Position numbers and translations under genes: made by a program. Of a DNA stretch of 64,000 bases, positions 1 through 23,737 are shown in pieces. The notes under the pieces were generated by a model. That model was given only the letters and a program-made list of their open reading frames with translations, made no database searches and had not been told where the DNA came from. The stretch comes from Corynebacterium falsenii (GTDB lineage Bacteria; Actinomycetota; Actinomycetes; Mycobacteriales; Mycobacteriaceae): assembly GCF_020099275.1 (NCBI RefSeq), contig NZ_CP083646.1, positions 868,001 to 932,000 of the forward strand. The letters are read 5' to 3'. Numbering within the stretch: position 1 is the first letter of the stretch; each line of letters begins with the position of its first letter.

Positions 1-1562
1 GCTATGCGGATCATCCCCGCCTGAGCGGGGAGCACCTTTCCTCACTTCCATAGTTAGGCTAACCTCACGGATCATCCCCGCCTGAGCGGGGAGCACCTTT
101 CCTCACTTCCATAGTTAAGCTAACCTCACGGATCATCCCCGCCTGAGCGGGGAGCACGCCGGTCGATCCGGCTACTGTGCAGGAGGGCGCGGATCATCCC
201 CGCCTGAGCGGGGAGCACGTCACCATGGGGGCAGTGCCCCACCGGACCTGCGGATCATCCCCGCCTGAGCGGGGAGCACGACATGGAGACGAATGAGGAC
301 CCGCTGGAGCACGGATCATCCCCGCCTGAGCGGGGAGCACGAAGGATGGTGTGAGGCGCAGGTGGTCTACGAGGGATCATCCCCGCCTGAGCGGGGAGCA
401 CCCTTAGTGGACGCTAGGGAATTGAACCCCATAGGGATCATCCCCGCCTGAGCGGGGAGCACCTTTTCCTCATATTCGCCCTCTTCGATACCTAGGGATC
501 ATCCCCGCCTGAGCGGGGAGCACCTTTTCCTCATATTCGCCCTCTTCGATACCTAGGGATCATCCCCGCCTGAGCGGGGAGCACCACGGGACTAAAAACG
601 ACTCAATCCGGCTTAACGGATCATCCCCGCCTGAGCGGGGAGCACGCGGCTAATATGCTGCACCGTCAAGCGCGACCACGGATCATCCCCGCCTGAGCGG
701 GGAGCACCGCCTCCGTTTTTGAAGCCGTTGTCGGACACGGGGATCATCCCCGCCTGAGCGGGGAGCACGTCGCGGCTGGTGTTCTGGGGAAGGATTCCTC
801 GGGGATCATCCCCGCCTGAGCGGGGAGCACACATCGCGTCATGCTTAGTGGATTCTTGTTTCAGGATCATCCCCGCCTGAGCGGGGAGCACCATAACCGC
901 AGGTCAGGCCGTGTTTTTGGTGTGGGATCATCCCCGCCTGAGCGGGGAGCACGGGTAGCTAGGCTAGTTCAACCCGGATTATGTGGGATCATCCCCGCCT
1001 GAGCGGGGAGCACATGTGGGCTATCAGTTGCGCTACTGTAATTGAGGGATCATCCCCGCCTGAGCGGGGAGCACCGTGAGGGGGTGTATCACGCGCGGGT
1101 GCGTGCGGGATCATCCCCGCCTGAGCGGGGAGCACACGCCAGGACGATACGCGCTGTTCAGCGTTGCGGGATCATCCCCGCCTGAGCGGGGAGCACGACT
1201 GGTTGAATCGGCTTGCCATGGATGATCTGGGATCATCCCCGCCTGAGCGGGGAGCACCCGAACACTGGAATGATCGTGCCGTTCTTCACAGGATCATCCC
1301 CGCCTGAGCGGGGAGCACTGGACAAGTCTGGGTGGTGGTCGCAGACTGCTGGGATCATCCCCGCCTGAGCGGGGAGCACGACAGCAGCTGCAGCATATCG
1401 TCACCCTGCAGCGGATCATCCCCGCCTGAGCGGGGAGCACTGCGCGAGGATCGCCCGCGCCCGCAGGAGGGACGGATCATCCCCGCCTGAGCGGGGAGCA
1501 CTTGATCCGCCGCGTGGAGGGGCAGCATCGGGTGGGATCATCCCCGCCTGAGCGGGGAGCAC
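1..1562 (-). CRISPR. Type I-E CRISPR array, 26 repeats, open at left edge
   Basis: 26 copies of a 28-bp repeat that look identical by eye start at 8, 69, 130 and so on to 1535, with a 61-bp period (two steps are 62). Positions 1-7 are the end of a further spacer, so the array continues off the left edge. Read on the minus strand the repeat has the I-E form: a CCCCGC/GCGGGG stem with a 4-nt TCAG loop, then an ATGATCC handle. cas genes and array are both on the minus strand and the leader lies at the right end. The newest spacer is therefore 1502-1534 and the oldest visible one is at the left. Two neighbouring spacer pairs are duplicated (36-68/97-129 with one mismatch; 463-495/524-556 identical). 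Confidence 0.98.
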
Positions 1563-1652
1563 ACTACTTGAACAGCAGCTATGTGATCCTACAGAGACAA
1601 TTTACATCACTTTGCCTTCTAGGATCGGCGGAGAGTGCCCAGGGGGAGTGCC
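1563..1652 (-). promoter_or_regulatory. CRISPR leader
   Basis: These 90 bp lie between the cas2 stop codon and the first repeat. The part next to the repeat (about 1563-1620) is AT-richer than its surroundings, as leaders usually are. Position and orientation (downstream of cas2, upstream of the array on the minus strand) make it the leader. I cannot name a convincing promoter hexamer or an integration-host-factor site in it. Confidence 0.7.
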
Positions 1653-2003
1653 CTAACCGCGCCGCCTTTTCGCTTTTCGATATCGCGATTGCTTCGACCA
1701 CCCTGCCTTCAGCGAGCTCGATTGGTTGGAGATCGGCCGGCGTATGAGGGTGAGGCCGTCGTAGTCCACAGGCTTCCACTGAGCCCGGTGAACACGAATT
1801 TCGAAACCAGATTCTGTATCTCGGGATGGAAAGGTCATGATAGCCCTTCCTGACTTCACTTCATCGGTGACAGTGAACCATAGTTCATCTCTGACTCGCT
1901 TATTTACCCGACCCACGTAGACACCGGGCTCGATCTCAAAAAGCCAGCGGGTGAGGTACCCGCGAATCCGTTGAGGGCAAGCAGTGATGACAAGTGTGAT
2001 CAT
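1653..2003 (-). CDS. cas2: CRISPR-associated protein Cas2e
   Basis: 116 aa. Cas2 forms the structural core of the Cas1-Cas2 integrase that inserts new spacers at the leader end. The protein has the Cas2e (CasC-type) form: a ferredoxin-like start (MITLVITACPQRIRGYL), a WLFEIEPGVYVG segment, then a basic, poorly conserved tail (RYRKAKRRRG). The length fits I-E Cas2, which is longer than classic Cas2. Its ATG overlaps the cas1 stop by 4 nt, so the two are probably translationally coupled. The gene appears intact. Confidence 0.95.
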   Translation of the reverse strand: MITLVITACPQRIRGYLTRWLFEIEPGVYVGRVNKRVRDELWFTVTDEVKSGRAIMTFPSRDTESGFEIRVHRAQWKPVDYDGLTLIRRPISNQSSSLKAGWSKQSRYRKAKRRRG

Positions 2004-3013
2004 CGGGGCTCCTCATCAGAGGGCTTCGGGTCCAGCTCATCGAAAGCATCCTCCGACAGTTCCTCCGGAGCATAGTTTGACCCTCCAGCGACTTTGCGGT
2101 CCGCACCATCCCATAGCTCAACGACGTCGGCCCATTGATGTGCATCTTCGTTCGAGTCAGGTCCTAGTAACAGGCTCTTCACATCGTCCGCGATGCGTGA
2201 CGGAAGCTGAGAATTCCTAAACTCATCGCGCATTTTCCTTCTTACTAGCACTCCAATATCAGTGAGGTCCACTGTGCCAGCATCGTGAAGTTCCCGTATG
2301 GCTCGGAAAGCGACTGGAATTGAAATCTCCGCTTTATACAAATCGGCCACGTCGTAAACAAAGCTCCGGTCGTGTCCGGTGTGGACAAAGCCCAAGCCCG
2401 GACTGCAACCGAGTGAAACTACCACCGCGTGGGTGAGGCCATACATACAGGCATGAGCTGCTGAAAGAGCTTGGTTAATCGGGTCGCCGGCCGAGAAATT
2501 TTCCGGATCGTAGGTTCGCCGATCCCACTCCACGCCGAACTCCTCGGAACATTGCCTGTAGACTCGCCGAACTCTAGCTCCTTCCTTTCCACGAAGTTGC
2601 TGCATCGTAAGCCCAGCCGTGTCTTCGTTTGGAAAGCGCATCCCATACATCTGTCTAGCAACGGCAAGTCGACTTGTGGTTTTGCTAACCTTCTCGGCTT
2701 GCACGGTCAATAGACGGGAAGAACGGGCGATACTCCGACCGTGTGCGTAGTACCGCACTCCTTCCTCTCCAACCCATACCAACGAACAGCCCGATTCGGC
2801 GGCAACGGTCACAGCTTGATGAGTGACTCTTGTTCCAGGGCCTAATAGAAGGACGTTCAGCGCAGAGACAGGGACATGTATAACCCCGTCCTCGTCAGTA
2901 GAAGTTAGCGCACCGCCGTCCCTACCCAGGGTGCAATGCTCCAGGTAAAGATAGGAAATTCTGTCTCCGGCACGCAAGACCTGCTGAGGCCGCGGTGGTA
3001 GTACTCCAGCCAT
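2000..3013 (-). CDS. cas1: CRISPR-associated endonuclease Cas1e
   Basis: 337 aa. Cas1 is the integrase subunit that joins new spacers to the leader-proximal repeat. Aligned by eye to E. coli Cas1, the metal ligands are all present: Glu144 in LRGKEGARVR, His211 in GFVHTG, and Asp221 and Asp224 in FVYDVADLYK. It is about 30 residues longer than the E. coli protein, mainly through an acidic C-terminal tail (DELDPKPSDEEPR). It lies 3 nt after cas6e and overlaps cas2 by 4 nt. Nothing suggests loss of function, so adaptation is probably possible even though cas3 is broken. Confidence 0.96.
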   Translation of the reverse strand: MAGVLPPRPQQVLRAGDRISYLYLEHCTLGRDGGALTSTDEDGVIHVPVSALNVLLLGPGTRVTHQAVTVAAESGCSLVWVGEEGVRYYAHGRSIARSSRLLTVQAEKVSKTTSRLAVARQMYGMRFPNEDTAGLTMQQLRGKEGARVRRVYRQCSEEFGVEWDRRTYDPENFSAGDPINQALSAAHACMYGLTHAVVVSLGCSPGLGFVHTGHDRSFVYDVADLYKAEISIPVAFRAIRELHDAGTVDLTDIGVLVRRKMRDEFRNSQLPSRIADDVKSLLLGPDSNEDAHQWADVVELWDGADRKVAGGSNYAPEELSEDAFDELDPKPSDEEPR

Positions 3014-3016
3014 CGT

Positions 3017-3673
3017 CTATCCCGTCACTGATGCGAGAGTGAGTAAACCGCATCCGTAGGCCTTAGCGCGCCCTATGCCGTCGGTGAGCACACTGCGCAG
3101 CGCATCGGCTTGGCGGACTTCAAGGAGCCCCTCGTAGGTGACCTTCGAGATGGTGACTGTCTTTCCTTTTCGAGGGAATTTAGCCATTTCACGGCCTACA
3201 ACCGACAGCGCAGGTTGGTTCTGCCAGTCCTCCGCCTCTGGAAATACTAAGCCCATGCTTTCGGCTCGGTCGACGAGCCACTGTGTCTGCTGTTTCACAG
3301 TGACATGTGCCAGACGTTTCTTCTGTCCATTTTCCAGAGTCACAGTGTGTGTCGGATTTGCCGTCAAGCGAAACGCGTATGTCTGTCCGCGCATAATTCC
3401 TTGAAGGAGGGGCGTGTAGTCGCGAATCGCCCAACTTTGCTCGTTAGCCCAGCCTGCCTGTTCCTGAATGTGCTCGAACGAAGGCTTGTCCGGGCTGACG
3501 ATGTATAGCAATGAACGATCCGACAGCGTATCGACTCGCCACAGTACTCGTTTCTCATTTATGAGATCCCGAGGAAAAGCATCCATAACCGCACCATGCA
3601 TTTTTCCGGGCGATGACAGAAGTTCGCGTGCACCTCGCCGACGAGGGTGAAGCTCCATCCTGGATAAGTACAT
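3017..3673 (-). CDS. cas6e: Cas6e (Cse3/CasE) pre-crRNA endoribonuclease
   Basis: 218 aa. Cas6e cuts the repeat hairpin at the 3' base of the stem, leaving an 8-nt 5' handle, and stays bound as part of Cascade. The N-terminal SPGKMHGAVMDAFP carries a histidine at residue 26, the position of the catalytic His of characterised Cse3 proteins. The C-terminal glycine-rich GIGRAKAYGCGLLTL is the RAMP signature loop. Its start overlaps the cas5e stop by a single base. With the repeats seen here, the predicted handle is ATGATCC plus one variable base. Confidence 0.95.
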   Translation of the reverse strand: MYLSRMELHPRRRGARELLSSPGKMHGAVMDAFPRDLINEKRVLWRVDTLSDRSLLYIVSPDKPSFEHIQEQAGWANEQSWAIRDYTPLLQGIMRGQTYAFRLTANPTHTVTLENGQKKRLAHVTVKQQTQWLVDRAESMGLVFPEAEDWQNQPALSVVGREMAKFPRKGKTVTISKVTYEGLLEVRQADALRSVLTDGIGRAKAYGCGLLTLASVTG

Positions 3674-4386
3674 CAGCTTCCTCCTAGAAGAGTGAAGGGG
3701 TCATGGCCACCACGGTCTTCCAGTCCGAGATCATTGTGTACTCGGACCCATGAATGAACAATGGGACGCAGGGAATACTGGCGGTGGGTAGGCGAGAAGG
3801 AAACTGGATTGTCGCGGACAAGTTCGTCCGACTTTTCACTGGCTTCAACATCTCGGCTCACAAGCAAGTTCAGATTTCGCGGTTGGCGCTTCCGGTACCA
3901 AGGAGCCGCCATCCACTCTGCTTCGCTGAGAGCCTCATGGAGGCCAGAGGCGACGATTCCCAGGGATACTCGCCTACCGGGGGGACAGTTCCGTCGGCCG
4001 AGATAGAGCGGAAAAACGGGATGTCTCAGAGAGTCTTCAAGGCCCTGGAGCGTGGTTTTGGGGCCTTCAACTGCAGCAACGAACTTGTAGTCATGCAAGT
4101 AGAAGCGATTGGTCAGCACCATTGACTCAGCTTTGGATCCGTTCTTCGGCCAACGAGTTTCGGTTTGAAAGTCACGGCGAATCGTTCCAACCTGATCGGT
4201 TCGCACCCCGAAACGGAGCCCAAGAAGATCGCTGAGGTCGGATTCTCGCGATCGTCCTTCAGCTGAGGCAAGTAGCCCGATAATTCCACTTTTCGTAGGT
4301 TCTGTGCGAGTTTCCCGGCGGCTGAATCGACTGCTTGAGCCCCACGACTGCATTGGCCCATCGAGGGCCAAGAGCAAGGTAGGCAT
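3673..4386 (-). CDS. cas5e: Cascade subunit Cas5e (CasD)
   Basis: 237 aa. Cas5e binds the 5' handle of the crRNA and links the Cas7 backbone to Cse1. The N-terminus LLLALDGPMQSWGSSSRFS is the typical Cas5e start, including the conserved PMQSWG, followed by the usual RRETRTEPTKSGIIGLLA segment. Length is normal for the family. The stop overlaps cas6e by one base and the start lies 5 nt after the cas7e stop, so it sits within the cas operon. No disruption seen. Confidence 0.95.
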   Translation of the reverse strand: MPTLLLALDGPMQSWGSSSRFSRRETRTEPTKSGIIGLLASAEGRSRESDLSDLLGLRFGVRTDQVGTIRRDFQTETRWPKNGSKAESMVLTNRFYLHDYKFVAAVEGPKTTLQGLEDSLRHPVFPLYLGRRNCPPGRRVSLGIVASGLHEALSEAEWMAAPWYRKRQPRNLNLLVSRDVEASEKSDELVRDNPVSFSPTHRQYSLRPIVHSWVRVHNDLGLEDRGGHDPFTLLGGS

Positions 4387-4391
4387 TAATT

Positions 4392-5492
4392 CTAGACCTC
4401 CAAGTTCGCAAATGACTGAGCCACGCGATCGACGATGTCAGGAAGGGTGAGTTGGACTGCGCGTCCGTCGAGGGCTTCCTGAAGCTCTGGGGAAGAAACT
4501 CGATCGATTGCGAGATAGAAGGAATCCACCGGCTTCGTTGCGTACTGAGCGTCTCCATCGATGGCGTACTCAACAAGTCGCTGAGCTGCCAGCTTGCTTG
4601 CTTCACCCTTGTTGGGAATGGGATCTTCGAAAGCGTTGCCGAGTTCCACCGGCTGGTCATCCCGAATTTCGACCAAAAGGAAATCTGGACGGGTTCGGTT
4701 GGCAAACGTGTTTTGCTTGCCGGTCGGCATGCTTGTGGTGAACACCTGCGTGAATGCGCGGGCAGCCTCGGCCGCAGCTTGAGCACTTCCAATGTTCTCC
4801 ACCAGCTTGGTGGCGTTGATAGTGGCATATCGATAGAGGGTGGAGGAGACAAACTCGACTGTGCCGATCATGCCGGCACCGGCATTGTCTTCCGGAGCGA
4901 GGTCGTCGACCGCTGTGAAGTAATCGAATTCCTGAATAGCCTGGTGAACGGAAAGGGCGTGCTTGACCTGGCAGGAAGCATCGACATTGAGCTCAGGAAG
5001 GTTGGCGAGCATCCGGCCGAAGAGTGCGACGTCTACGGCTTGGGCACTGTCGATTGCCTTCTTGACATCCGACCTCTTGAGGGTCTGACCATCAAGGATA
5101 TCGGCGGCAAATTGGGCCAGCTTTGCAATCTCTTCGCGGGCAAGGAAGATCAGCGCACCAGTTTCTTCCGGTCGCTTCTTGTCCATGGTGATATTCGCAG
5201 CCGCTAGAGCCTTCTGGGCTGCTTGCATTGCGTCGTCATCGGAAAGCTCGTTACGGTTCTGCTTGAGTTGCTCAGCAATGAGCGAAGCAGCGTGCTTGGT
5301 GCGTTCGCCGAGCTGGCTTTCGTCCAAGACATTGTGAAAGTCTCGCCGCATTGCACGCTTCCATGCTTGGCTGGACACGCGGTGGCGCTCTACACCACCG
5401 AAGCGGGCTGACTTCGGAGAGCCAGTGTCATCACGGTTCAGGTTTGATGGGGGAACGAGCTGGATGGCGTGGAAGTCGATGAATAGAGACAT
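4392..5492 (-). CDS. cas7e: Cascade backbone subunit Cas7e (Cse4/CasC)
   Basis: 366 aa. Six copies of Cas7e normally polymerise along the crRNA spacer, flipping out every sixth base. The start MSLFIDFHAIQLVPPSNLNR and the SARFGGVERHRVSSQAWKRA segment are hallmarks of the Cse4 family. Length is normal. A purine-rich site (GGAAAGGA) precedes the ATG. A 78-nt spacer with a stem-loop separates it from cse2, unlike the overlapping junctions elsewhere in the operon, which may help set its higher stoichiometry. Confidence 0.95.
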   Translation of the reverse strand: MSLFIDFHAIQLVPPSNLNRDDTGSPKSARFGGVERHRVSSQAWKRAMRRDFHNVLDESQLGERTKHAASLIAEQLKQNRNELSDDDAMQAAQKALAAANITMDKKRPEETGALIFLAREEIAKLAQFAADILDGQTLKRSDVKKAIDSAQAVDVALFGRMLANLPELNVDASCQVKHALSVHQAIQEFDYFTAVDDLAPEDNAGAGMIGTVEFVSSTLYRYATINATKLVENIGSAQAAAEAARAFTQVFTTSMPTGKQNTFANRTRPDFLLVEIRDDQPVELGNAFEDPIPNKGEASKLAAQRLVEYAIDGDAQYATKPVDSFYLAIDRVSSPELQEALDGRAVQLTLPDIVDRVAQSFANLEV

Positions 5493-5525
5493 GATAGGGA
5501 GTCCTTTCCAGACGTGTCATAGGTA

Positions 5526-5546
5526 GCTGCAAATCGTTATTGCAGC
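5526..5546 (-). promoter_or_regulatory. Stem-loop between cse2 and cas7e
   Basis: A perfect 7-bp stem, GCTGCAA/TTGCAGC, with a 7-nt loop, lies in the only sizeable gap inside the Cascade operon. No U-run follows, so it is not an intrinsic terminator. It could be an mRNA processing or stabilising element that raises cas7e expression. That role is inferred. Confidence 0.45.
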
Positions 5547-5570
5547 CGGTGGGTTTGTGTGTGCTTCCGA

Positions 5571-6200
5571 TTAGGCGGTGTGCTCGGAAGTTTCCTCAGT
5601 CGGTTTTTCGGATGACGGGTTTTGCGCGTACAGATCCCGGGACCACGCCAGGCGTACGCCTCGGCGAGGTTGATCAAAGTGGTAGCTGAATAGGTCTTCA
5701 GCCAACTGGCCGTAGTCAAGCGAAATACCAGCTGCGCGAAGTTGATTTATTAGTCCGCGCATGTGCCATAGCAGCTCATCGGGAGAATCAGACGTGATGA
5801 GAGCGTTGTACCGCCGAATAACGGGGCTGGACTCGTAGTCCTCGGCAGGGCTCAAACGAATGAGATCCCGAATTGCTTGACCAAACCCCCTGCCGCGTCG
5901 GTGCATCGCAGTGGATTGGGACTGTTGATGCACGGAGTAGAGAGACAGCGCGCTGAGGATTGAACGTTCGGCGTAGCTGAGATCGTCACTGCGGCCAACG
6001 AGTTCGGCAGGCAGGTCTGTGAATGCTACTGCTGTGACTGTTGGATCGAACGTTTGGGAGCTGGTGCCCCTGCGCATGCGAGCAAGATGCGCACGGCTCG
6101 TCGAGGAATGCCCCTCGAGCAGGCTTCGCTGGAGCCGTTCAATTGTCGTTGTGATATGTGATCCAACGAGGTTCCGCGATTGTGCGAAATTAAATGTCAT
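5571..6200 (-). CDS. cse2: Cascade small subunit Cse2 (CasB, Cas11)
   Basis: 209 aa. Two Cse2 copies form the belly of I-E Cascade and stabilise the R-loop. Identification rests on position between cse1 and cas7e, size, and an Arg-rich mostly helical composition (for example HLARMRRGTSSQ and RRGRGFGQAIRDLIRLSP). The ATG at 6200 overlaps the cse1 stop by 4 nt. Cse2 is poorly conserved, so the call relies on context as much as on sequence. A low-complexity acidic/Thr tail ends the protein. Confidence 0.9.
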   Translation of the reverse strand: MTFNFAQSRNLVGSHITTTIERLQRSLLEGHSSTSRAHLARMRRGTSSQTFDPTVTAVAFTDLPAELVGRSDDLSYAERSILSALSLYSVHQQSQSTAMHRRGRGFGQAIRDLIRLSPAEDYESSPVIRRYNALITSDSPDELLWHMRGLINQLRAAGISLDYGQLAEDLFSYHFDQPRRGVRLAWSRDLYAQNPSSEKPTEETSEHTA

Positions 6201-7915
6201 GAGGAACCTTCCTTCTCGTTGTTGCGATCCACTGGGTTTACTTGTCCGAGGATCTTGGTGAGATTACGGCGGAATTGCAGATGAGCGCTTCCAGCCGTGA
6301 TTCGGAATTTGGAGTCTGCATGCCAACGCCCAGCCCATGCTTGAGGGCTGACATCGTCGAGCAAGTCACGACCGACCCTCTCTGCGGTGGAGCGCAGTGT
6401 CTTCTGCCACACGTCAATGGCCGTGGACGGTGCAACGGACGGTGTGAGTGTCAACAGCCATTCACGGAAGGGCACGTCAATCGCTGCATAGAAACGACTG
6501 CGGATGTCGTCCGCGTCTGACGGGAATTCACCTGAGCCAGCGAAGACAAGCTTTCTGTAGAAATTTCCCGTCTCCCATGCAACCTGGTCGGATAGTTCGA
6601 CGCCGCTGCGTGCAGCTTCTCGCAGGTCTTCCTGCTCTGGCGCTAGGAGGGCAGTTCCAATACTGAGACTGTCGGTAGCAATGGTTCCATACGATGAGCT
6701 TTGGCTACCGTAGCTCATCGATACGGTGGACACTCGGATGCGCTTCGATTCGTCAATCCCAGCTTGGCCATCGAGGAGAAGCGTGCTGAGCCACTCGACC
6801 GTCTTGGGCGGTTTGCTGGCATCAACCGTTCCGTTGGCTCCAAACTTAGATTTAGCCTGTTGAGCACGAGCCAGGGGAAGTATTCCGGACAATGATCGCC
6901 ACAAGGCGCGACCAGGGTCAAAGGCCCGGGGCATGTAGACCAAAGTTTTTGCCTTCTTGGACTGGGGATCGCTGTACCTCCACGGCGTCATCTTCTCGAC
7001 ACCATATTGGCGGGTATAACCGACCGGATCACCGTTCGAGATCAGCACGCCAATTGCCTTTTCATCTTTCCAGAACAGGCGGATGCGACGCTGTGGCCAT
7101 GTGAGAAGCTCCACAGGGCCAGTTGCGCGGGTGCGTTCCGGAGACTTGGGGTCGAACCGCGGTTCCTTCCGGGCACTACTGGTGAGCTGAGGCAGTTCCC
7201 AGATCGGGAGATCGTCACCGGAGTGCCCAGCCAACTCAGGGCCATGTTGGGGCGCGAAGTTCAGCAGAAGTGTTTCCTTGAGGTTATCCCCGTGAAGCAC
7301 GGTGCCGCCAAGCCATCCAGCCCAGCCGATACCAATGGGATATCCGCGACCTCCTTTGACGCGATCGTCTCCGACGGCACCGGACTTGATGCCGGAAAAA
7401 TCGTAGGCCTGGCAATGAACGAGAGCTCTAGCGGCCTCCGCGGCCGTCAGCTCTGAAACCTCCGTCCGCATGCTGAATAGTGCACCCACGTCCGGTATGA
7501 GGAGAGCGAGATCGCCCACCGAATTTTTCGAGGTGTGGAGATCAGGTACCTGGAAAAAGGGATACTCGGGATCTCGCAGGTTAAATCGGTAAGACCACTC
7601 GTCGAGATAAGACTTGACCTCGTCAGACAATAGGGTGGGGGCTTCCCACAGTGACTGCCACAACTCGAGGGCGGTGTCTTCATCGTCGAGGTCGTCGGCA
7701 TCCCACACTCTGTAGAGAATCGCCAAAAGAATTCGCAGAATTGCGAAATTCGTGGTTTCCAGAGGATCCGCGAGCCGCTGATACTCTTCGCCGTTCTCCA
7801 AGGCCTCGTGAATACTGATGTCGCGTTCCACGCCCTGTTGGTCCAGGACGGTGATCCAGGGTTCAGTGAGCAAGTTGAATTTGCTGACATCCGTTTCAGC
7901 TGTGTTTTCAGACAA
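6197..7915 (-). CDS. cse1: Cascade large subunit Cse1 (Cas8e, CasA)
   Basis: 572 aa. Cse1 recognises the PAM and recruits Cas3. The N-terminal FNLLTEPWITVLDQQG is the standard Cse1 opening. The LLLNFAPQHGPELAGHSGDD and VYMPRAFDPGRALWRSLSG regions also fit the family, as does the length. The start is TTG at 7915, chosen because AAAGGAGGT stands about 7 nt upstream. A 195-bp gap separates it from cas3, so cse1 to cas2 can be a separate transcript that survives the cas3 insertion. Confidence 0.95.
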   Translation of the reverse strand: MSENTAETDVSKFNLLTEPWITVLDQQGVERDISIHEALENGEEYQRLADPLETTNFAILRILLAILYRVWDADDLDDEDTALELWQSLWEAPTLLSDEVKSYLDEWSYRFNLRDPEYPFFQVPDLHTSKNSVGDLALLIPDVGALFSMRTEVSELTAAEAARALVHCQAYDFSGIKSGAVGDDRVKGGRGYPIGIGWAGWLGGTVLHGDNLKETLLLNFAPQHGPELAGHSGDDLPIWELPQLTSSARKEPRFDPKSPERTRATGPVELLTWPQRRIRLFWKDEKAIGVLISNGDPVGYTRQYGVEKMTPWRYSDPQSKKAKTLVYMPRAFDPGRALWRSLSGILPLARAQQAKSKFGANGTVDASKPPKTVEWLSTLLLDGQAGIDESKRIRVSTVSMSYGSQSSSYGTIATDSLSIGTALLAPEQEDLREAARSGVELSDQVAWETGNFYRKLVFAGSGEFPSDADDIRSRFYAAIDVPFREWLLTLTPSVAPSTAIDVWQKTLRSTAERVGRDLLDDVSPQAWAGRWHADSKFRITAGSAHLQFRRNLTKILGQVNPVDRNNEKEGSS

Positions 7916-7979
7916 TGTGGTACCTCCTTTCTATGGTGGTGTCCCGCCGTTGTGCAGACGGAATCTAGGGTGGGGTTCA

Positions 7980-8041
7980 CCGAGTTAGAGCGTTAGCAGG
8001 GCGCTAATGCTTGTCAGTAGAAGTTTCCTTCTTTAACTCGG
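7980..8041 (-). promoter_or_regulatory. Nested inverted repeat upstream of cse1
   Basis: In the 195-bp gap between cas3 and cse1, an outer 8-bp perfect inverted repeat (CCGAGTTA/TAACTCGG) encloses a second one (GCGTTAGC/GCTAATGC, one wobble). I see no U-run for a terminator. It could be an operator or a folded 5' leader of the Cascade transcript. I did not find a clear -35/-10 pair in this gap. Confidence 0.4.
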
Positions 8042-8110
8042 TTTCTCGTTGCTTCTCACGGCTACAAATACGTTCAAGAACAACCTGTTAGCTCCGTGAT
8101 TTTGGTTGGT

Positions 8111-9346
8111 TTACGGCCCCATGAGAAGCCCCCTTTCAAGGTCATACGTGAAGCGAGTACTCGCGAGCTCAATCGATAGATCTTCGTCAAGAATCATGGG
8201 GAGCTGGCCAGCGAGCCATCGAGAATGTTGCCATCCGTCGAGGCCGCCTTCTTCAAGAATCCGAATATCCTCGTCCCGAATGGACCAGCTAGGAAGCCGA
8301 ACTGTACATTGAGCGATCCTCTTCGCGATTGGGGGATCGATTTCCGCTAGGTCGTCGAGCGGAATGTCTGATAGCCCCTGAACGTGCGGCAAGGCAAACA
8401 CGCGCCCTTCGCGACGCTGTACAACGACTACTTCGACAGAGTCATCGGCATCGCGGACCTGCGCACATCCGAGTTGCTCATCTGCCGGTGCGAGTGCGGA
8501 CGACCAAGAGTCTAGATTTTTCATACTTGGTGGGGAAATAAGATAATGAGAAGCGCCAGAATGCTGTCGCTCAGTAAAAATCCGTTCCCTCTCCTCTGCA
8601 GCCGCGTACGCTTCCCGCCATGCTGGGGGGCTTTCGTGATTCGTATAGGTACTGCTCACCAGCCCTTCTACATCGTCGGGAATGGTGACGAGTCCTCCGT
8701 TGGCCTTCACATGGCGCTGCAGCGTAGCTGCAGTGCGCAAGAGAGGGAGCTTTCGATATACCGCCACAAGGCCGGGTTCGAAGTGCGGAGCTTCCCCGTC
8801 GAGGTCGGGGATGCTCGATCCGATGATGTCGAGGCGGGCCGTTTTATGGGTTTGCGAGCGTACCGCGTCAACATTTCGGTGTCGATGGAGCCTGCCGATA
8901 CGCTGAATCAAAAGATCTATCGGTGCAAGATCTGAAACCATGTAGTCGAAATCGAGATCTAGGCCCTGCTCGACAATTTGAGTGGAGATGACGATGAGCC
9001 GTTCGGGCCGTGCTGCAGTGTGCCGTCCCAGTAGTCGAACAAGATCAGATTCCCGGTCGAATCGGTGATCCGAGAGGAAGCGGGAATGCAGAAGAACCAC
9101 ATCTGCATCGTTGTGAGGTAACTGGGTCTTGACGTATTCGTAGAGTTCTTGAGCTCGTGAAACCGTATTGCAGATCGCGGCTACGCACCCGCCTGCAGCG
9201 CTGGCTTCGATGAGACGGGAAGCGGTCTCAGCAAATTCCTCGTCATGGAAGCAAACCTCGACCGTTCTAGCAGCATGGTGAGAATCATCTTGCGGAAAGA
9301 CTGTGGTCGGCTGTGCCTCTCTTACTGTCGTGATGCGTGGCTAACC
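8111..9346 (-). pseudogene. cas3: cas3, 3' fragment (helicase C-terminal part)
   Basis: This is the second part of cas3, cut off from its start by the IS at 9347-10804. Reading from the junction gives a Cas3-like sequence (PRITTVREAQ, then EVCFHDEEFAETASRLIEAS, then AAICNTVSRAQELYEYVK) and runs without a stop to 8111. It contains helicase motif VI (QRIGRLHRHR) and the C-terminal Cas3 domain. The GTG at 9100 is only the first start-like codon and not a natural start. The left target-duplication copy contributes an in-frame TAG (GGT TAG). No independent expression signal is visible. Confidence 0.93.
9339..9346. repeat. Left target-site duplication of the ISL3-family element
   Basis: GGCTAACC here and GGATAACC at 10805-10812 flank the IS directly. 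Eight bp is the usual duplication length for ISL3-family elements. The copies differ at one base. The right copy encodes Tyr in the cas3 frame (TAT), while the left copy would give TAG. The left copy therefore most likely mutated after insertion. Confidence 0.85.
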
Positions 9347-10804
9347 GGCTCTTCACGTTTCGGAGTGCGTAGTTGACCGCGGGGTGGGGTTCGGGGTGGC
9401 ACAACATATAGGGGTCCTGGCCGGTACAAGATGAGAGTTACGACGCTTCCATCCAACCGAACCAGGACCCTACTGTGCAGCCTACTACTGGCAACCTCGT
9501 CGCCGACACCATCTGCCGCACCGCCGAGATCGGCCTGACGATCACCGGTGCCGCCGACGCCGGAAACATCACCATCATCGACGCCACACCCGTGTCCGCG
9601 AGCAACACCTGCCCTGACTGCGCACAATCCGGGAAGCTTCGCGACCACGTCCTTCGTCGTCTCGTCGATCTGCCGGTGGTCGGGTTCCCGACCCGTCTGC
9701 ACGTCCGCGTGCCCCGCTTCACCTGTACGAATGCCTCCTGTGGCAGGAAGATCTTCCAGGCCACACTGAGCTGCGCCGATGACGGAGCGAAACTCACCCA
9801 CCGGGTGACCCGCTGGATCCTCCAGCGCCTCGCGGTCGACCGGATGAGCGTGTCTGCCACCGCCAAGGCACTCGGCGTGGGTTGGGAGCTGGTCAATCAG
9901 GTCGCCCTCGAGGCCTGCCGCAAGCTTGTCTACGACGACTCTCCGCATCTGGACGGGGTGCGCATCCTCGGGGTGGATGAGCACGTATGGAAACACACCC
10001 GAAAGTCAGGTCAGCCATCCAGTCTGGTGACCATCCTCGTCGACCTCACGCCCCTGGTCGACGGCCGTGGCCCTGCCCGACTGCTGGACATGCGCCCCGG
10101 CCGCAGTGCACAGGTGCTGCGCACCTGGCTGCAGGAACGCGATCCTGCTTTCCGGGAAAATGTGCAGGTGGTGACCATGGACGGCTTCACCGGTTACGCC
10201 TCAGCCGTCGATCAGATGCTCCCGGATGCCACCAAGGTCATGGACCCCTTCCACGTGGTGCATCTGGCAGCCGACAAACTCACCGGATGCCGGCAACGGC
10301 TCCAACGAGAGACCACCGGACACCGGGGCCGCAAGGACGATCCGCTGTACAAGCACCGTCGCACGCTACTGACCAGGACGGACTACCTCACCGAGCGGCA
10401 GAAGCAGCGCCTGGACATGCTGTGGGCCACCGATGACGAATACGTGGCCCTGGAGGTGACCTGGATGTTCTATCAGGACATGATTGCGGCTTACGGGCAT
10501 CCGCAGAAGTCGGAGGGCAAGAAGCTCATGAGCAGGGTGATCAACAGCATTCGTAAGGGCCTACCGAAGGGGCTGGAAGAGCTCGCGCAACTGGGTCGGA
10601 CATTGTGGCGTCGGCGTGAGGATGTCCTGGCGTACTTCGATATCGGGGCGTCCAACGGTCCGGTCGAGGCGATCAACGGACGGCTCGAGCATCTACGCGG
10701 GATTGCTCTGGGGTTCAGGAATCTCAACCACTACATCTTGCGGTCACTGATCCACTCCGGCCAGATACACAACCGGATCAACGCACTCTAAATCGTGAAG
10801 AGCC
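9347..10804 (+). mobile_element. ISL3-family insertion sequence inside cas3, 1458 bp
   Basis: Terminal inverted repeats begin GGCTCTTCACG at 9347 and, reversed, at 10804. They match at about 21 of the first 24 bases (9347-9370 and 10781-10804). An 8-bp, one-mismatch target duplication flanks the element. Size, end sequence, duplication length and a single 438-aa transposase fit the ISL3 family, close in size to corynebacterial IS31831-type elements. It lies antisense to cas3. Deleting 1466 bp (IS plus one duplication) joins the two cas3 pieces in frame. Confidence 0.96.
9475..10791 (+). CDS. ISL3-family transposase
   Basis: 438 aa, GTG start. An N-terminal zinc-finger region has two CxxC/CxxxxC groups (CPDCAQSG near residue 43; CTNASCGR near residue 83). 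A helix-turn-helix follows, then the DDE catalytic domain with Asp in ILGVDEHVWKHT, Asp in VTMDGFTGYAS, a DPFHVVHLA segment and the terminal Glu in GPVEAINGRLEHLRG. The frame is complete and undamaged, so the element may still be mobile. No strong ribosome site precedes the GTG. Confidence 0.95.
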   Translation: MQPTTGNLVADTICRTAEIGLTITGAADAGNITIIDATPVSASNTCPDCAQSGKLRDHVLRRLVDLPVVGFPTRLHVRVPRFTCTNASCGRKIFQATLSCADDGAKLTHRVTRWILQRLAVDRMSVSATAKALGVGWELVNQVALEACRKLVYDDSPHLDGVRILGVDEHVWKHTRKSGQPSSLVTILVDLTPLVDGRGPARLLDMRPGRSAQVLRTWLQERDPAFRENVQVVTMDGFTGYASAVDQMLPDATKVMDPFHVVHLAADKLTGCRQRLQRETTGHRGRKDDPLYKHRRTLLTRTDYLTERQKQRLDMLWATDDEYVALEVTWMFYQDMIAAYGHPQKSEGKKLMSRVINSIRKGLPKGLEELAQLGRTLWRRREDVLAYFDIGASNGPVEAINGRLEHLRGIALGFRNLNHYILRSLIHSGQIHNRINAL

Positions 10805-12351
10805 GGATAACCGTGCTCAGGCGTGGAAATTGCAGCCAGGCCTTTTTTCGCTGCCGTGCCACTGAGCACTCCTTTTGAATAGGCAGCACAAAGCTCATTT
10901 CGCTTGGCGGCCGGCAGAGTTGCGGACAGTGCAATGACGGGTACACCGTAGGTTCCGAGCCATTCGAGCATCCGATTGAGATAAACACTCATCCAGTGAT
11001 CGGCTGCGTGAATTTCATCGAGAATTACAACTTTGCCGACAAGGCCGAGATGACGGAGCACTATGTGCTTTGAGCTCAGAGCACCAAAGAGCAACTGGTC
11101 AATGGTTCCAACCGTGATGCTTGCAAGCAACGATGTCTTCCGTCCTCGGAACCATTGTGGAGCTTCCGGCGTGGAGGAAAGATCCCCGGTATCAGACGGC
11201 TCTTCATCGTAGATTTCACTGGGGAGAGTGTGCCGAGGTCCCCACGTGAAGATTGACTCAAAATCTGAGTTAAATTGGGCTCTTCCGTGAGCGAGAATGA
11301 AGGAGGGTGCTGGATTGCCGGATGGAGACGATTCCAGCCACTTCTTCACTCGATTGAACATTGCATCAGATGTCACTCGCGTGGGCTGAGCAAAGAAGAT
11401 CCCCGATTTTCCAAACGTCAACGCGAGATTTTCAGCCATTGCGAGGGCTGCCTCGGTTTTCCCGCTGCCCGTCTCGCTTTCGAGGATGTGCAGGCTCGGG
11501 GCAGTTGTGCTTTGGGATACATCGATGGCAGCTGCCTGTAGCGCATTCGCGGACGAACCGGTGGGGAGACCGAATCGTGATGCGAATGCCTCCGGGGTGA
11601 CCGAGCTCGGGCTCCACTGATGGCCCAGGTTGATCAGTGTGAGTGCACGTTCGAGTCGATCGATTTCGAGGTCATCCGCATCGTACGGAAAATAATCTTC
11701 GTTCGAGGCCACCCAGTCAGCGGTGATGAGGATACCGGTGAGCAGAATCCAATGCTGAGGTTTCCACTCCAAGGTCGCGAACTGTTGGGCAATCTCGGCG
11801 GTAATGTCGTACCTTTCAGCGATCTCGTCGAGGAAGTCGAATCGCGCTTGACGCCACGTAGCGGGTTCCAGGCGTAATTCCGATCGAGCAACCCTGACGC
11901 TGTCGTCCGTGGGGAACACGCCATGGTGACCGCCGAGAATATATTTCCATCCTCGGCGCGCGTCGCGCGTGAGTTTCGTAGAACCGCGTTGTTCCATCCA
12001 TTCCCAAAAACTGAGAAAGCTCACAAGTGAATGCGGAGCGTTTCGCATCGAGGTCCGGTTAACCGTCATGGGAAACCTGGTGGAATCCAGTCGGGCTGCT
12101 GGCTCCGGAGCTTTGGCTTGGAAATAGGGGCTGATCTTTCCAAGGTCATGAACCGCGGCCATTGTTGTAAGTAACAAGGAGAGATCTACGTTCCCCAAGT
12201 CCTCCTGCAGGTCTTCGAGTACCGATGGGGGAAGTAGAAGCTGTGCGACATGCGTGATCACGTCAGCTGCATCCCTACTGTGCTGGGCAACAGAGAGTGT
12301 TTGCCCGTCGCTTCGGGAGTACTTCGCCCAGAAGAGGGTGCTGTTGGTCAT
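10805..12351 (-). pseudogene. cas3: cas3, 5' fragment (HD nuclease and helicase N-terminal part)
   Basis: 515 codons of Cas3 before the IS. The reading frame then runs on into IS sequence and stops at 10744. The HD nuclease domain is visible (VAQHSRDAADV, VHDLGKISPYFQAK, GGHHGVFPT). The helicase part shows Walker A (SETGSGKTEAALA), the DEIH box (VVILDEIHAADHWM) and SAT (ALSATLPAAKR). Motif VI is lost to the other fragment, so neither piece can make an active helicase-nuclease. Joined precisely, the gene would code for 924 aa, normal for Cas3e. Recruitment of this fragment to Cascade is unlikely but not excluded. The ATG at 12351 has GAAGGGCGG before it. Confidence 0.95.
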
Positions 12352-12370
12352 GACCCGCCCTTCAGTGAAT

Positions 12371-12387
12371 AGTTAAATTTTAGATTT
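12371..12387 (+). promoter_or_regulatory. cas3 promoter region with crRNA-like guide target
   Basis: On the minus strand a -10 box TAAAAT (12382-12377) stands 25 bp before the cas3 ATG, with a weak -35 TTGAGT about 19 bp further upstream. The plus-strand bases 12371-12387 begin AGTTAAATTTT, the same as positions 1-11 of the upstream mini-CRISPR spacer. Position 12 differs and positions 13-17 (GATTT) match again. The flank 5' of this protospacer is AAT. Cascade bound here would cover the -10 box. Confidence 0.7.
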
Positions 12388-12474
12388 ATGTCCCACAGCT
12401 TACTCAAGCTAGTTTCGCTCCGCAAGGCTTTTGTTGTTCTATGCCGTCCGGGGCCCGCCTGGCTGTGGACTGAA

Positions 12475-12483
12475 TTATCCACA
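12475..12483 (+). promoter_or_regulatory. Isolated DnaA-box consensus
   Basis: TTATCCACA matches the bacterial DnaA-box consensus exactly and lies between cas3 and the crRNA-like unit. Together with the preceding TGTGGACTGAA it forms an imperfect inverted repeat. A single box may be chance. Confidence 0.3.
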
Positions 12484-12525
12484 TCCCGGTGGACAACGCC
12501 TTTGGAGTTACGGATGTATATAGAA

Positions 12526-12558
12526 AGCAGGTGAGAGGGATAGTCCCTCTCACCTGCT
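12526..12558 (-). terminator. Intrinsic terminator of the crRNA-like RNA
   Basis: A perfect 15-bp stem (arms 12526-12540 and 12544-12558) with a 3-nt loop, followed on the minus strand by TTTCTATAT. It ends the mini-CRISPR transcript before the cas3 promoter, making the unit separate from cas3. Confidence 0.85.
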
Positions 12559-12583
12559 AAAACCCCGCGTATGCGGGGAACAC
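12556..12583 (-). repeat. Degenerate CRISPR repeat 2 of the mini-CRISPR
   Basis: 19 of 28 bases match the array repeat. The minus strand starts GTGTTCCCCGC and has a perfect 6-bp stem with GCGGGG. The handle end has decayed (TTTTAGC in place of ATGATCC), which is tolerable because the last repeat need not supply a 5' handle. Confidence 0.8.
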
Positions 12584-12604
12584 TCAAAATCGAAAATTTA
12601 ACTG

Positions 12605-12632
12605 GGATCATCCCTGCTTTCGCAAGGAGCTT
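12605..12632 (-). repeat. Degenerate CRISPR repeat 1 of the mini-CRISPR
   Basis: 20 of 28 bases match the array repeat. The stem sequence has changed on both arms yet still pairs (one G-U), and the 10 bases GGATCATCCC on the plus strand, which encode the crRNA handle, are unchanged. This pattern suggests selection for processing by Cas6e rather than simple decay. Confidence 0.8.
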
Positions 12633-12648
12633 GCTCCCAGTGACAATC

Positions 12649-12654
12649 AGTATA
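12649..12654 (-). promoter_or_regulatory. Probable -10 box of the crRNA-like RNA
   Basis: TATACT on the minus strand, about 17 nt before repeat 1, predicts a transcription start near 12642. The -35 region (around TTTCGA) is weak, which is common in corynebacteria. Confidence 0.5.
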
Positions 12655-12718
12655 TTCCCCCTAAGTCACCTCGAAAGGGGTGCCGTCCATACCTGTGCAA
12701 CCCCTGCGTGACCCCCAC

Positions 12719-13624
12719 CTACCCCTCGAACCGCACCACGCTCGTCACCGACCCGATCCCATCAATCCCCACGGTCACCTCGTCGCCATCGGCCAGGTAC
12801 CGCGGCGGCTTCATCCCGTGCCCCACACCCTCGGGCGTGCCGGTCATGATCACGTCGCCAGCGTGCAGCGGCGTGAATGTCTGGATGTAGTCCACCAATT
12901 CCTGCGGCTTAAACACCAGGTCAGCAAGGCTGTGTTCCTGCCGCAGCTCCCCGTTGACCCACGTGCGCAGCACACTCCCCTCCGCCACGGGATCCAGCTC
13001 GTCGGCCGTCACCATCCACGGCCCCAGCGCAGAGGACGCCACCACGTTCTTCCCCTGCATCCACTGCTGCGTGCGGTACTGCCAGTCCCGCTGCGAGCAA
13101 TCATTCGCCACCGTGTACCCTGCGATCCGCCCGCCGTTGCCCATGATGATCGCCAGCTCGCCCTCGTAATCCACCTGCTCCGCCATCGCCGCCGGCACCT
13201 CCACCGCGGCAAACGGCCTGGCCAGCGTATCGGGGAACTTCGTAAACAGCGTCGGGTGATCCGGAATCGGGTGCCCCATTTCCTCGATATGCTCGCGGTA
13301 GTTCAGGCCCACGCAGAAGATCTTTTGGGTCGACGCCACCATGCGCCCACCCATCCCACCGGCAGCGGTCGCCTCCGGCGCCGCTGCCGGCGGAAGCAGG
13401 TCCTCCACCGCGAAGGTCACCTCCGGCAAGGCGTACAGGTCGACCCCGCCGCCATCGACCCCGCCGCCATCAACCCCGCCGCCAGCGTATGCGCCGCCTC
13501 CGGGCAGGATCCGCCCCGTGCACCGCGAACCAGGGCGGACTGAATCCCCCGAATGATCGATGGCGATGGGGATGGGTTGGGCGTCGGGCTGAGAACCGGG
13601 AATGGATAGGCGACCGAACTTCAT
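12719..13624 (-). CDS. Fumarylacetoacetate hydrolase family protein
   Basis: 301 aa from the ATG at 13624, preferred over the upstream ATG at 13654 because MKFGRLS is the usual family start and GGGAG lies upstream. FAH-family enzymes hydrolyse or isomerise beta-diketo acids in aromatic and amino-acid catabolism, or act as acylpyruvases. The core is complete: CVGLNYREHIEEMG, the metal-ligand region VDYEGELAIIMG, and the closing TGTPEGVGHGMKPPRYLADG. An inserted low-complexity stretch of GGGVD units sits in the N-terminal domain, coded by three 15-bp repeats near 13441-13487. The exact substrate cannot be told. Confidence 0.9.
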   Translation of the reverse strand: MKFGRLSIPGSQPDAQPIPIAIDHSGDSVRPGSRCTGRILPGGGAYAGGGVDGGGVDGGGVDLYALPEVTFAVEDLLPPAAAPEATAAGGMGGRMVASTQKIFCVGLNYREHIEEMGHPIPDHPTLFTKFPDTLARPFAAVEVPAAMAEQVDYEGELAIIMGNGGRIAGYTVANDCSQRDWQYRTQQWMQGKNVVASSALGPWMVTADELDPVAEGSVLRTWVNGELRQEHSLADLVFKPQELVDYIQTFTPLHAGDVIMTGTPEGVGHGMKPPRYLADGDEVTVGIDGIGSVTSVVRFEG

Positions 13625-13678
13625 AGTGGAAAACTCCCTTGCACAAAGACCCACCGGGGTGCGCGTGACATAGATGCG

Positions 13679-13684
13679 TAAAAT
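13679..13684 (+). promoter_or_regulatory. -10 box for leaderless cysS transcript
   Basis: TAAAAT ends 8 nt before the GTG start of cysS and there is no ribosome site between them. The transcript probably begins at or next to the GTG. The divergent FAH gene starts only 68 bp away, so the two promoters share this interval. Confidence 0.55.
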
Positions 13685-13692
13685 AGATAAAT

Positions 13693-15123
13693 GTGACTCT
13701 GCGAATTTACGATACCGCGCGCCGGACCCTCCGAGACTTCGAACCCATCAGGGAAGGCCACGCATCGATCTATTTGTGTGGCGCCACCGTGCAGTCGATT
13801 CCGCACATCGGGCATGTTCGCTCCGGTGTGGCGTTTGACATCCTGCGCAACTGGCTGGAGGCCAAGGGGTTGGACGTTGCGTTTGTCCGCAACGTCACCG
13901 ACATTGACGACAAAATCCTCACCAAGGCCGCCGAAAACGACCGCCCCTGGTGGGAATGGGCCGCCACCCACGAGCGCGCCTTCACCTGGGCGTACGACCA
14001 GCTGGGCGTGACCCCGCCCTCCATCGAGCCACGCGCGACCGGACACATCCCGCAGATGATCGAGTACATGCAGCGCATCATCGACAACGGCCACGGATAC
14101 GCCGCCGAGGGCAACGTGTACGCCCAGCCCGCCACCATCGAGGACTACGGCTTCATCTCCGGCCAGCGCCTCGACGAGATGGACCAGGGCGAATCCGCAG
14201 GCAAGGGCAAGCGCGACCCGCGCGACTTCACCATGTGGAAGGCCGCCAAGCCCGGCGAGCCCTCGTGGGATACGCCGTGGGGGCCGGGCCGGCCGGGCTG
14301 GCACATCGAGTGCTCTGCGATGGCCACGAACTACCTCGGCAGCGAGTTCGACATCCACTGCGGCGGCCTAGATCTGCAGTTCCCGCACCACGAGAACGAG
14401 GCCGCGCAGGCCCGCGCCGCCGGTGACGGCTTCGCCCGCTACTGGATGCACAACGGCTGGGTGACGATGAGCGGCGAGAAGATGAGCAAGTCGCTGGGCA
14501 ACGTGCTGTCCATCCCGAACGTGCTCAAGCTCGTGCGCCCGGTGGAGCTGCGCTACTACCTGGGCAGCGCGCACTACCGCTCCATGCTGGAGTACTCGGA
14601 AACCGCGCTGGGCGAGGCCGCCGCGGGATACCGTCGCATCGAAAAGTTCCTGCTGCGTGTTGCTTCTGTTGTTGGGGTCGACGCCACCTCAGCCCCAGAG
14701 GCCTTGCCTGTCGGTGAGGTGACGGACGAATTCGCGGCGAAGATGGATGAGGATTTGGCGGTGCCGCAGTGCCTGGCCATCATCCACGAGACCGTGCGCG
14801 AAGGCAATAAGCTGCTGGATGCGAAGAAGCCGGACGTGGAACGGCTGAAGGAGATCGCCGGTTCCGTGCGCGCCATGACGGCGGTGCTGGGCGTGGATCC
14901 GCTGTCTGACGTGTGGCTGGATTCCACCATTGCCGCGGCCGGTGGGTCGGCAGCTGCGATGGGTGCGCTCGATGTGCTGGTGCGCTCCGAGCTGGAGCGC
15001 CGCGCGCAGGCCCGGGCGGAGAAGAACTGGGCGGTGGCGGACGAGGTGCGCGATCGCCTGGCCGAGGCCGGCATTGAGGTCACGGACACCGCCGACGGCG
15101 CGAAGTGGGCGCTGAAGGACTAG
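13693..15123 (+). CDS. cysS: Cysteinyl-tRNA synthetase
   Basis: 476 aa, GTG start. It charges tRNA-Cys with cysteine in the cytoplasm. Class I signatures are visible: the HIGH motif as PHIGHVRS (near residue 37), KMSKS in [10 protein letters not shown] (near residue 264), zinc-ligand region CGATVQS near residue 29, and WHIECSAMA. The NVTDIDDKI segment and full length identify CysS rather than the shorter mycothiol ligase MshC. In corynebacteria cysS commonly precedes rlmB. Here an MFS gene on the other strand lies between them. Confidence 0.95.
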
Positions 15124-23685: not shown

Positions 23686-23737
23686 GGAATGTACGATGAC
23701 AAATATCCCGCGGAATGTACGATGACAAATATCCCGC
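23686..23737 (+). repeat. 26-bp exact tandem duplication over the start of the WcbI-like gene
   Basis: Positions 23686-23711 and 23712-23737 are identical. The unit contains GGAATGTACGATGAC, so ATGs and a GGA ribosome-site core are both doubled. Since 26 is not a multiple of 3, the copies fall in different frames. This makes start choice ambiguous and looks like a recent slippage or duplication event. Confidence 0.9.

Follow-up and report, generated by a model that had tools for sequence, protein, structure and literature searches.

The mini-CRISPR situated beside cas3 in the type I-E locus of Corynebacterium falsenii is very probably an element of the CreR type, whose guide would bring the I-E Cascade onto the cas3 promoter as a repressor. 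The guide, its target, the flank of the target and the genus-wide co-evolution of guide and target, with its six-base periodicity, are read directly from the genomes. The analysed stretch of DNA (the window) comprises 64,000 nucleotides of contig NZ_CP083646.1, and its left end is occupied by the CRISPR-Cas locus, which runs on the minus strand in the order cas3, cse1, cse2, cas7, cas5, cas6, cas1, cas2 and array. All eight I-E cas genes were recognised by PADLOC and Pfam, with cas3 split by an insertion:

10813..12351, minus strand: N-terminal part of cas3 (HD nuclease and start of the helicase; Pfam, and Cas3e in PADLOC)
9339..10812, plus strand: ISL3-family insertion sequence inside cas3 (transposase 9475-10791)
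8111..9338, minus strand: C-terminal part of cas3 (families matched on 8111-9100)
6197..7915, minus strand: cse1/cas8e
5571..6200, minus strand: cse2/cas11e
4392..5492, minus strand: cas7e
3673..4386, minus strand: cas5e
3017..3673, minus strand: cas6e
2000..3013, minus strand: cas1e
1653..2003, minus strand: cas2e
1..1562, minus strand: main CRISPR array with the repeat GTGCTCCCCGCTCAGGCGGGGATGATCC, at least 26 repeat copies (it runs off the start of the window)

The insertion is bordered by 32-nt inverted arms that are 84% complementary, and its outer bases, GGCTAACC and GGATAACC, may represent a target-site duplication with one change or a part of the arms. With cas3 disrupted in this way, selection on the loop may be relaxed in this strain. 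The period of the array is 61 in 23 of 25 steps and 62 in the other two, and its spacers are 32-33 nt long after the 29th base. There are 25 array spacers in the window, of which 24 are distinct; within positions 1-590, two neighbours near the start are one base apart and two others further on are identical. The comparison of the array with phages by blastn gave one 30-nt match, present in four Gordonia phage records, and the site (29 of 33 aligned, the 29th repeat base counted) is mismatched at the PAM end, therefore it is uninformative on the PAM. Elsewhere in the window, an exact 26-nt tandem duplication occurs at 23686-23737, where an ORF listed from 23689 begins.

The mini-CRISPR lies upstream of cas3 on the same (minus) strand, at 12632-12556, and consists of a single spacer between degenerate repeats. 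As is characteristic of CreR, repeat-like sequences surround one spacer-like sequence outside the array, adjoining the cas operon. The element and its target are composed of the following features:

12649..12654, minus strand: possible -10 box (TATACT) of the guide promoter, read by eye only
12605..12632, minus strand: psi-R1, degenerate upstream repeat, whose final 10 nt (GGGATGATCC) equal the 3′ end of the array repeat
12584..12603, minus strand: mini-CRISPR spacer AGTTAAATTTTCGATTTTGA, 20 nt
12556..12583, minus strand: psi-R2, degenerate downstream repeat, which keeps the 5′ part GTGTTCCCCGCATACGCGGGG and has a decayed 3′ part
12526..12558, minus strand: 15-pair hairpin with a T-rich tail, which probably terminates the guide transcript (one found against a shuffle mean of 0.3)
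12371..12387, plus strand: target (protospacer) in the cas3 promoter region, 16/17 identical to the spacer
12368..12370, plus strand: PAM-side flank, AAT

The first-pass annotation had placed the end of the element at 12604, which is one base too high, because 12604 is the 29th repeat base and spacer position 1 is 12603. In psi-R1 the sequence GGGATGATCC constitutes the crRNA 5′ handle, and the remainder of the array repeat is swapped for a different hairpin. This handle is identical to that of the array repeat and is absent elsewhere in the window outside the array. The fold of the guide region (12515-12645) has a z-score of -7.2. The mini-CRISPR does not have the features of a canonical array, as its spacer is 20 nt long and its repeats are degenerate, versus a period of 61-62 and repeats of 28 nt.

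The sequence comparison reproduced the match reported in the first-pass annotation. Spacer positions 1-11 (AGTTAAATTTT) are equal to plus-strand 12371-12381, position 12 differs (C/A), positions 13-17 match, and the pairing stops before position 18, with mismatches at 18, 19 and 20; the agreement of 16 bases in 17 and the AAT flank were likewise found at 12368-12387. The match thus stops at position 17 of a 20-nt spacer and pairs over 15 effective positions when 6 and 12 are left aside. The target is located 20-36 nt upstream of the cas3 start codon, with 19 nt between its end and the codon. Such a match had been considered unlikely to arise by chance, which agrees with the shuffling results: in a stretch of 480 bp surrounding the cas3 start, none of 20,000 shuffled 17-mers reached 16/17 and three reached 15/17. 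When AGTTAAATTTTNGATTT was searched with up to two mismatches in the 2.68-Mb genome, the target and the spacer itself were the only sites, and the reversed-pattern control gave none. Moreover, among the 25 array spacers and the mini spacer, only the latter had an AAN-flanked 10/10 seed match within window positions 1621-13700, at one site, that of cas3. The guide is therefore partly complementary to a cas promoter beside a PAM-like flank, as in CreR, the promoter being assigned by position and by eye. The TAAAAT proposed earlier as the -10 box of cas3 stands as a by-eye reading, but the promoter scan (at least 9/12 bases) across 12340-12760 did not recover it, and it found no promoter there for either cas3 or the guide.

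The conservation of the guide and its target was examined across the genus. A Cas3 search of 242 Corynebacterium genomes gave a match in 102, the genome of the window included. Of the 102 places outside the window 100 were used, two weak ones (G131 and G132) being left out, and 93 of the resulting 101 loci (window included) were classed as I-E-like; the other eight (L124-L131) were excluded for low Cas3 similarity, seven having a different repeat and one having no array seen. The strict scan required a handle with at most one mismatch, an AA flank and perfect positions 1-5 and 7-11, and it admitted targets lying between -450 and +60 relative to the start of cas3 or in the neighbourhood of the cas3-cse1 gap. 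By these criteria, 48 of the 93 loci have, beside cas3, a guide with the repeat handle whose 10-base seed perfectly matches a site upstream of cas3 or cse1. Twenty scrambled-handle controls gave 0, the scrambling having been applied to the four shared handles only, with each locus's own repeat end, used in the real scan, left unscrambled. Chance is ruled out by this difference. A further 17 of 93 loci were near, missing by one seed base or by a second handle base, which brings strict and near loci to 65; in the remaining 28 no guide was found by strict or near criteria.

The second analysis gave equal weight to all positions, required no flank and searched the upstream region of each locus's own cas3. 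It was applied to 47 mini-CRISPR candidates, which remained from 52 listed after L034, L053, L059, L060 and L087 had been dropped as spurious; the spacers of 26 of the 47 are 20-22 nt long, the 29th base included. At their own target 34 of the 47 guides scored at least 10/11, compared with 48 of 2162 pairings of a spacer with another genome (some of them close relatives) and 1 of 235 shuffles. The 34 targets contained 19 mismatches in positions 1-11, of which 17 fell at position 6 and two at position 9. All 34 carry AA in the flank, against a background of 6.8% (AAC in 27, AAT in five, AAG and AAA in one each), and the 48 strict loci, in which AA was required, have a similar composition (AAC 39, AAT 6, AAG 2, AAA 1). 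Position 6 is matched in 18 of the 48 strict loci (p 0.06 versus one in four) and position 12 in 12 of 48, which is the chance level; further on, the matches number 43 at position 13, 31 at position 14, 21 at position 15, 15 at position 16 and 6 at position 17, each of 48. With positions 6, 12 and 18 ignored, the match ends at position 11 in five strict loci, at 13 in 16, at 14 in 11, at 15 in nine, at 16 in six and at 17 in one, so that the match in the window, which runs through position 17, is the longest among them. The matching at position 17 lies slightly under chance (p 0.046, one of several positions examined), which possibly reflects selection against longer pairing. According to passages of PMC5904413, Cascade flips out every sixth base. 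Free positions 6 and 12 together with a held position 13 (and positions 7-11 held in the equal-weight test) are thus the mark of Cascade, and the earlier remark that the mismatch at 12 falls on a sixth-base position not read by Cascade gains genus-wide support, with 12 at chance while 13 is held.

The 48 strict loci contain 39 distinct seeds and 42 distinct 24-nt guides. The 65 strict and near loci gave 29 nearest-neighbour pairs, on which co-change was counted. Of 46 changed seed cells, 38 were matched in guide and target; among the rest, five changed in the target only, two in the spacer only and one on both sides without a match. None of the 25 changed cells at positions 6 and 12 was matched, and the same holds for the 110 changed cells at positions 18-24, while at positions 13-17 four of 62 were matched. 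Because good seeds were a condition for entering the strict and near sets, matched changes are favoured there; controls for this selection are provided by the free positions and by the equal-weight analysis. The independent divergence of spacer and promoter in orthologous loci, which the first-pass annotation had named as an observation that would speak against the loop, did not occur: the seed changes on both sides together, and positions 6 and 12 vary freely. The joint change of guide and promoter at the seed supports Cascade-guided binding of the cas3 promoter, and the fact that related species keep the two matched is a strong indication that the self-control loop is real.

The element occurs in two arrangements, the guide being on the strand opposite to cas3 in 38 strict loci and on the same strand in 10. 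The target is upstream of cas3 in 45 of the 48. At the cas3-cse1 gap, AA-flanked targets were found in three strict (L046, L050, L051) and two near loci (L047, L048), at roughly +2815 to +2889 relative to the start of cas3, with the guide still upstream of cas3. In the strict or near loci that target cas3 (59 of 60), the cas3-cse1 gap is -4 to 163 nt, bar four exceptions (L042, L076, L123 and the window) in which the cas3 frame ends early, and 72-104 nt in the five cse1-targeting loci; as these ranges overlap, the gaps do not separate the two groups. In six of the 59 cas3-targeting loci cas3 and cse1 overlap by 1-4 bases, therefore cas3 repression should reach Cascade there. The window has a gap of 195 nt, in which the promoter scan found no promoter, and the loop may act there on the cas3 transcript only. 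A scan outside the genus used 80 loci from a longer list, at least two of them from Corynebacterium. A guide with an AAN target was present in seven of the 80, five control handle patterns giving 0 each, and at most six of the seven are new, since L135 is C. hylobatis and already belongs to the genus set. Three of the seven (L147, L173 and L178) are weaker candidates because of an atypical handle context or position. Guide-target pairs upstream of cas3 were seen in an Actinomycetales MAG (L153), in Phytoactinopolyspora (L194) and in a Promicromonosporaceae MAG (L204).

The anatomy of the element, with degenerate repeats and a short, partly matching guide beside cas genes, is also that of CreTA and CrePA modules, in which the guide would repress a toxin RNA or a toxin gene and not a cas gene. 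Passages of PMC9458426 and PMC10989794 describe CreA of CreTA as having degenerate repeats, a short guide, pairing through an 11-bp seed (PMC10989794) and Cascade as the repressor, and passages of PMC12737573 describe CrePA as a CRISPR-like RNA that represses a neighbouring gene together with a Cas effector. In these accounts, however, CreA represses a toxin RNA and CrePA a protein toxin, whereas the target in Corynebacterium is a cas gene promoter. The 19 nt between target and cas3 codon are too short a space for a further gene, so that no protein toxin fits there in the window, and five relatives aim the guide at the cse1 promoter region. A small RNA could be accommodated in those divergent loci whose targets lie 160-200 nt ahead of the assigned start codon. 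With a target directly upstream of cas3, and upstream of cse1 in the five relatives, the element was not assigned to CreTA or CrePA, and such a module is very unlikely here.

Two further readings were weighed against the CreR-type loop. In the first, the guide is an ordinary antisense RNA pairing with the 5′ end of the cas3 mRNA and not a guide of Cascade. In the window and six other strict loci (7/48) the guide is complementary to the coding strand and could pair with the mRNA if transcription starts upstream of the target. In the other 41 of 48, however, the target is on the cas3 strand, hence the guide is mRNA-sense and unable to pair; moreover, neither the constant AA flank (34/34) nor the free mismatches at 6 and 12 are explained by antisense pairing, which makes this reading highly improbable. 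In the second, which concerns the divergent loci, the targeted promoter is the guide's own, and the loop would limit the guide rather than cas3. It draws on the 38 of 48 strict loci in which the guide is opposite to the cas3 strand with the target on the cas3 side. Hexamers resembling a -10 box stand beside the target in several loci, as judged by eye, and in several divergent ones such a hexamer (TATAGT, TATGCT, TAATGT) faces cas3 directly after the target, which argues against it. In the window more than 200 nt separate target and guide, the target adjoining the cas3 start, so the reading is inapplicable there, and for the divergent loci it is equally improbable. That the element is what remains of a decayed CRISPR array, with a spacer resembling the cas3 promoter by accident, as the degenerate repeats and the broken cas3 of this genome might suggest, has a negligible probability, being already contradicted by the genus comparison with its matched seed changes across species, by the absence of an equal match in 20,000 shuffles and by the terminator-like hairpin directly after the element.

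In the preferred, CreR-type reading, the mini-CRISPR would be transcribed and processed into a short RNA, and this transcript, bearing the 5′ handle of the array crRNAs, would load into the neighbouring type I-E Cascade. Its 20-nt guide would direct the complex to the AAT-flanked site over the cas3 promoter, where 15 effective pairs would be enough for binding and too short for full R-loop locking and cutting by Cas3. Cascade seated on the cas3 promoter would block transcription, and the block would lift when Cascade is scarce, inhibited or filled by other crRNAs. By analogy with the published CreR class, both repression and a sensing of crRNA supply are proposed here. Several published observations bear on these steps. 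Passages of PMC10989794 report that in the I-B system of H. hispanica spacers of 24 nt or shorter repress without signs of cutting, and that a 20-bp spacer is much weaker than those of 21-24 bp, with 44% and 65% of control mRNA left; as the spacer in the window is 20 nt long, the latter result counts against the proposed repression. Two points from passages of PMC5904413 also count against it: in E. coli I-E, off-target binding through short seed matches left transcription unchanged, and in work cited there promoter repression is steeply reduced by only 6 mismatches at PAM-distal bases. Short spacers may form smaller Cascades that behave differently.

Natural guide RNAs that turn an effector into a repressor by a short match include tracr-L of Cas9 systems. 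The cas-regulating RNA CreR was reportedly described by Liu et al. in 2023 (Cell Host Microbe 31:1481, doi 10.1016/j.chom.2023.08.005). In passages of PMC13131331, PMC12948488 and PMC12737573, CreR is a mini-CRISPR regulatory RNA with a partial match to a cas promoter, known from types I-B, I-E and V-A, generally without a toxin partner, and proposed as a sensor of crRNA abundance and of anti-CRISPRs. The element in the window is alike in its mini-CRISPR guide, which partly matches a cas promoter, and the 19-nt distance from target to cas3 codon fits the absence of a toxin partner. The scaRNA of Cas9 systems is likewise a natural guide turning the effector into a repressor by a short match, as described in passages of PMC9458426. 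Both tracr-L and scaRNA belong to type II and act with Cas9, whereas the cas genes of the window are of type I-E. The kind of loop is thus already described as CreR; what is added here, in I-E loci of Corynebacterium, is the genus-wide co-evolution of guides and targets, the six-base rhythm, the two arrangements and the change of target from cas3 to cse1. A literature search by title and abstract, with most subscription papers outside its reach, gave no paper on CreR or a mini-CRISPR regulator in Corynebacterium.

A broader proposal is speculative and, taken as a whole, unlikely. According to it, the CreR guides of the genus would be reprogrammable, moving between cas3 (most) and cse1 (some) outputs, and the record of mismatches would map how much pairing suffices to repress but not to cut (1-5, 7-11 and 13 being held and 14-15 partly so, with nothing clear beyond). 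In addition, the over-long guide of the window may have begun to recruit Cas3 to the cell's own DNA, and the resulting selection for loss of Cas3 could have left a natural repressor-only Cascade.

Summarizing, the 48 strict natural pairs, with their 42 distinct guides, from a single genus offer an evolutionary readout of the base pairs that I-E Cascade needs at a promoter in living cells. The genus comparison shows cas3 and the Cascade genes to be interchangeable as targets, and the loop bears on the natural silence of I-E systems and on their possible response to anti-CRISPRs.
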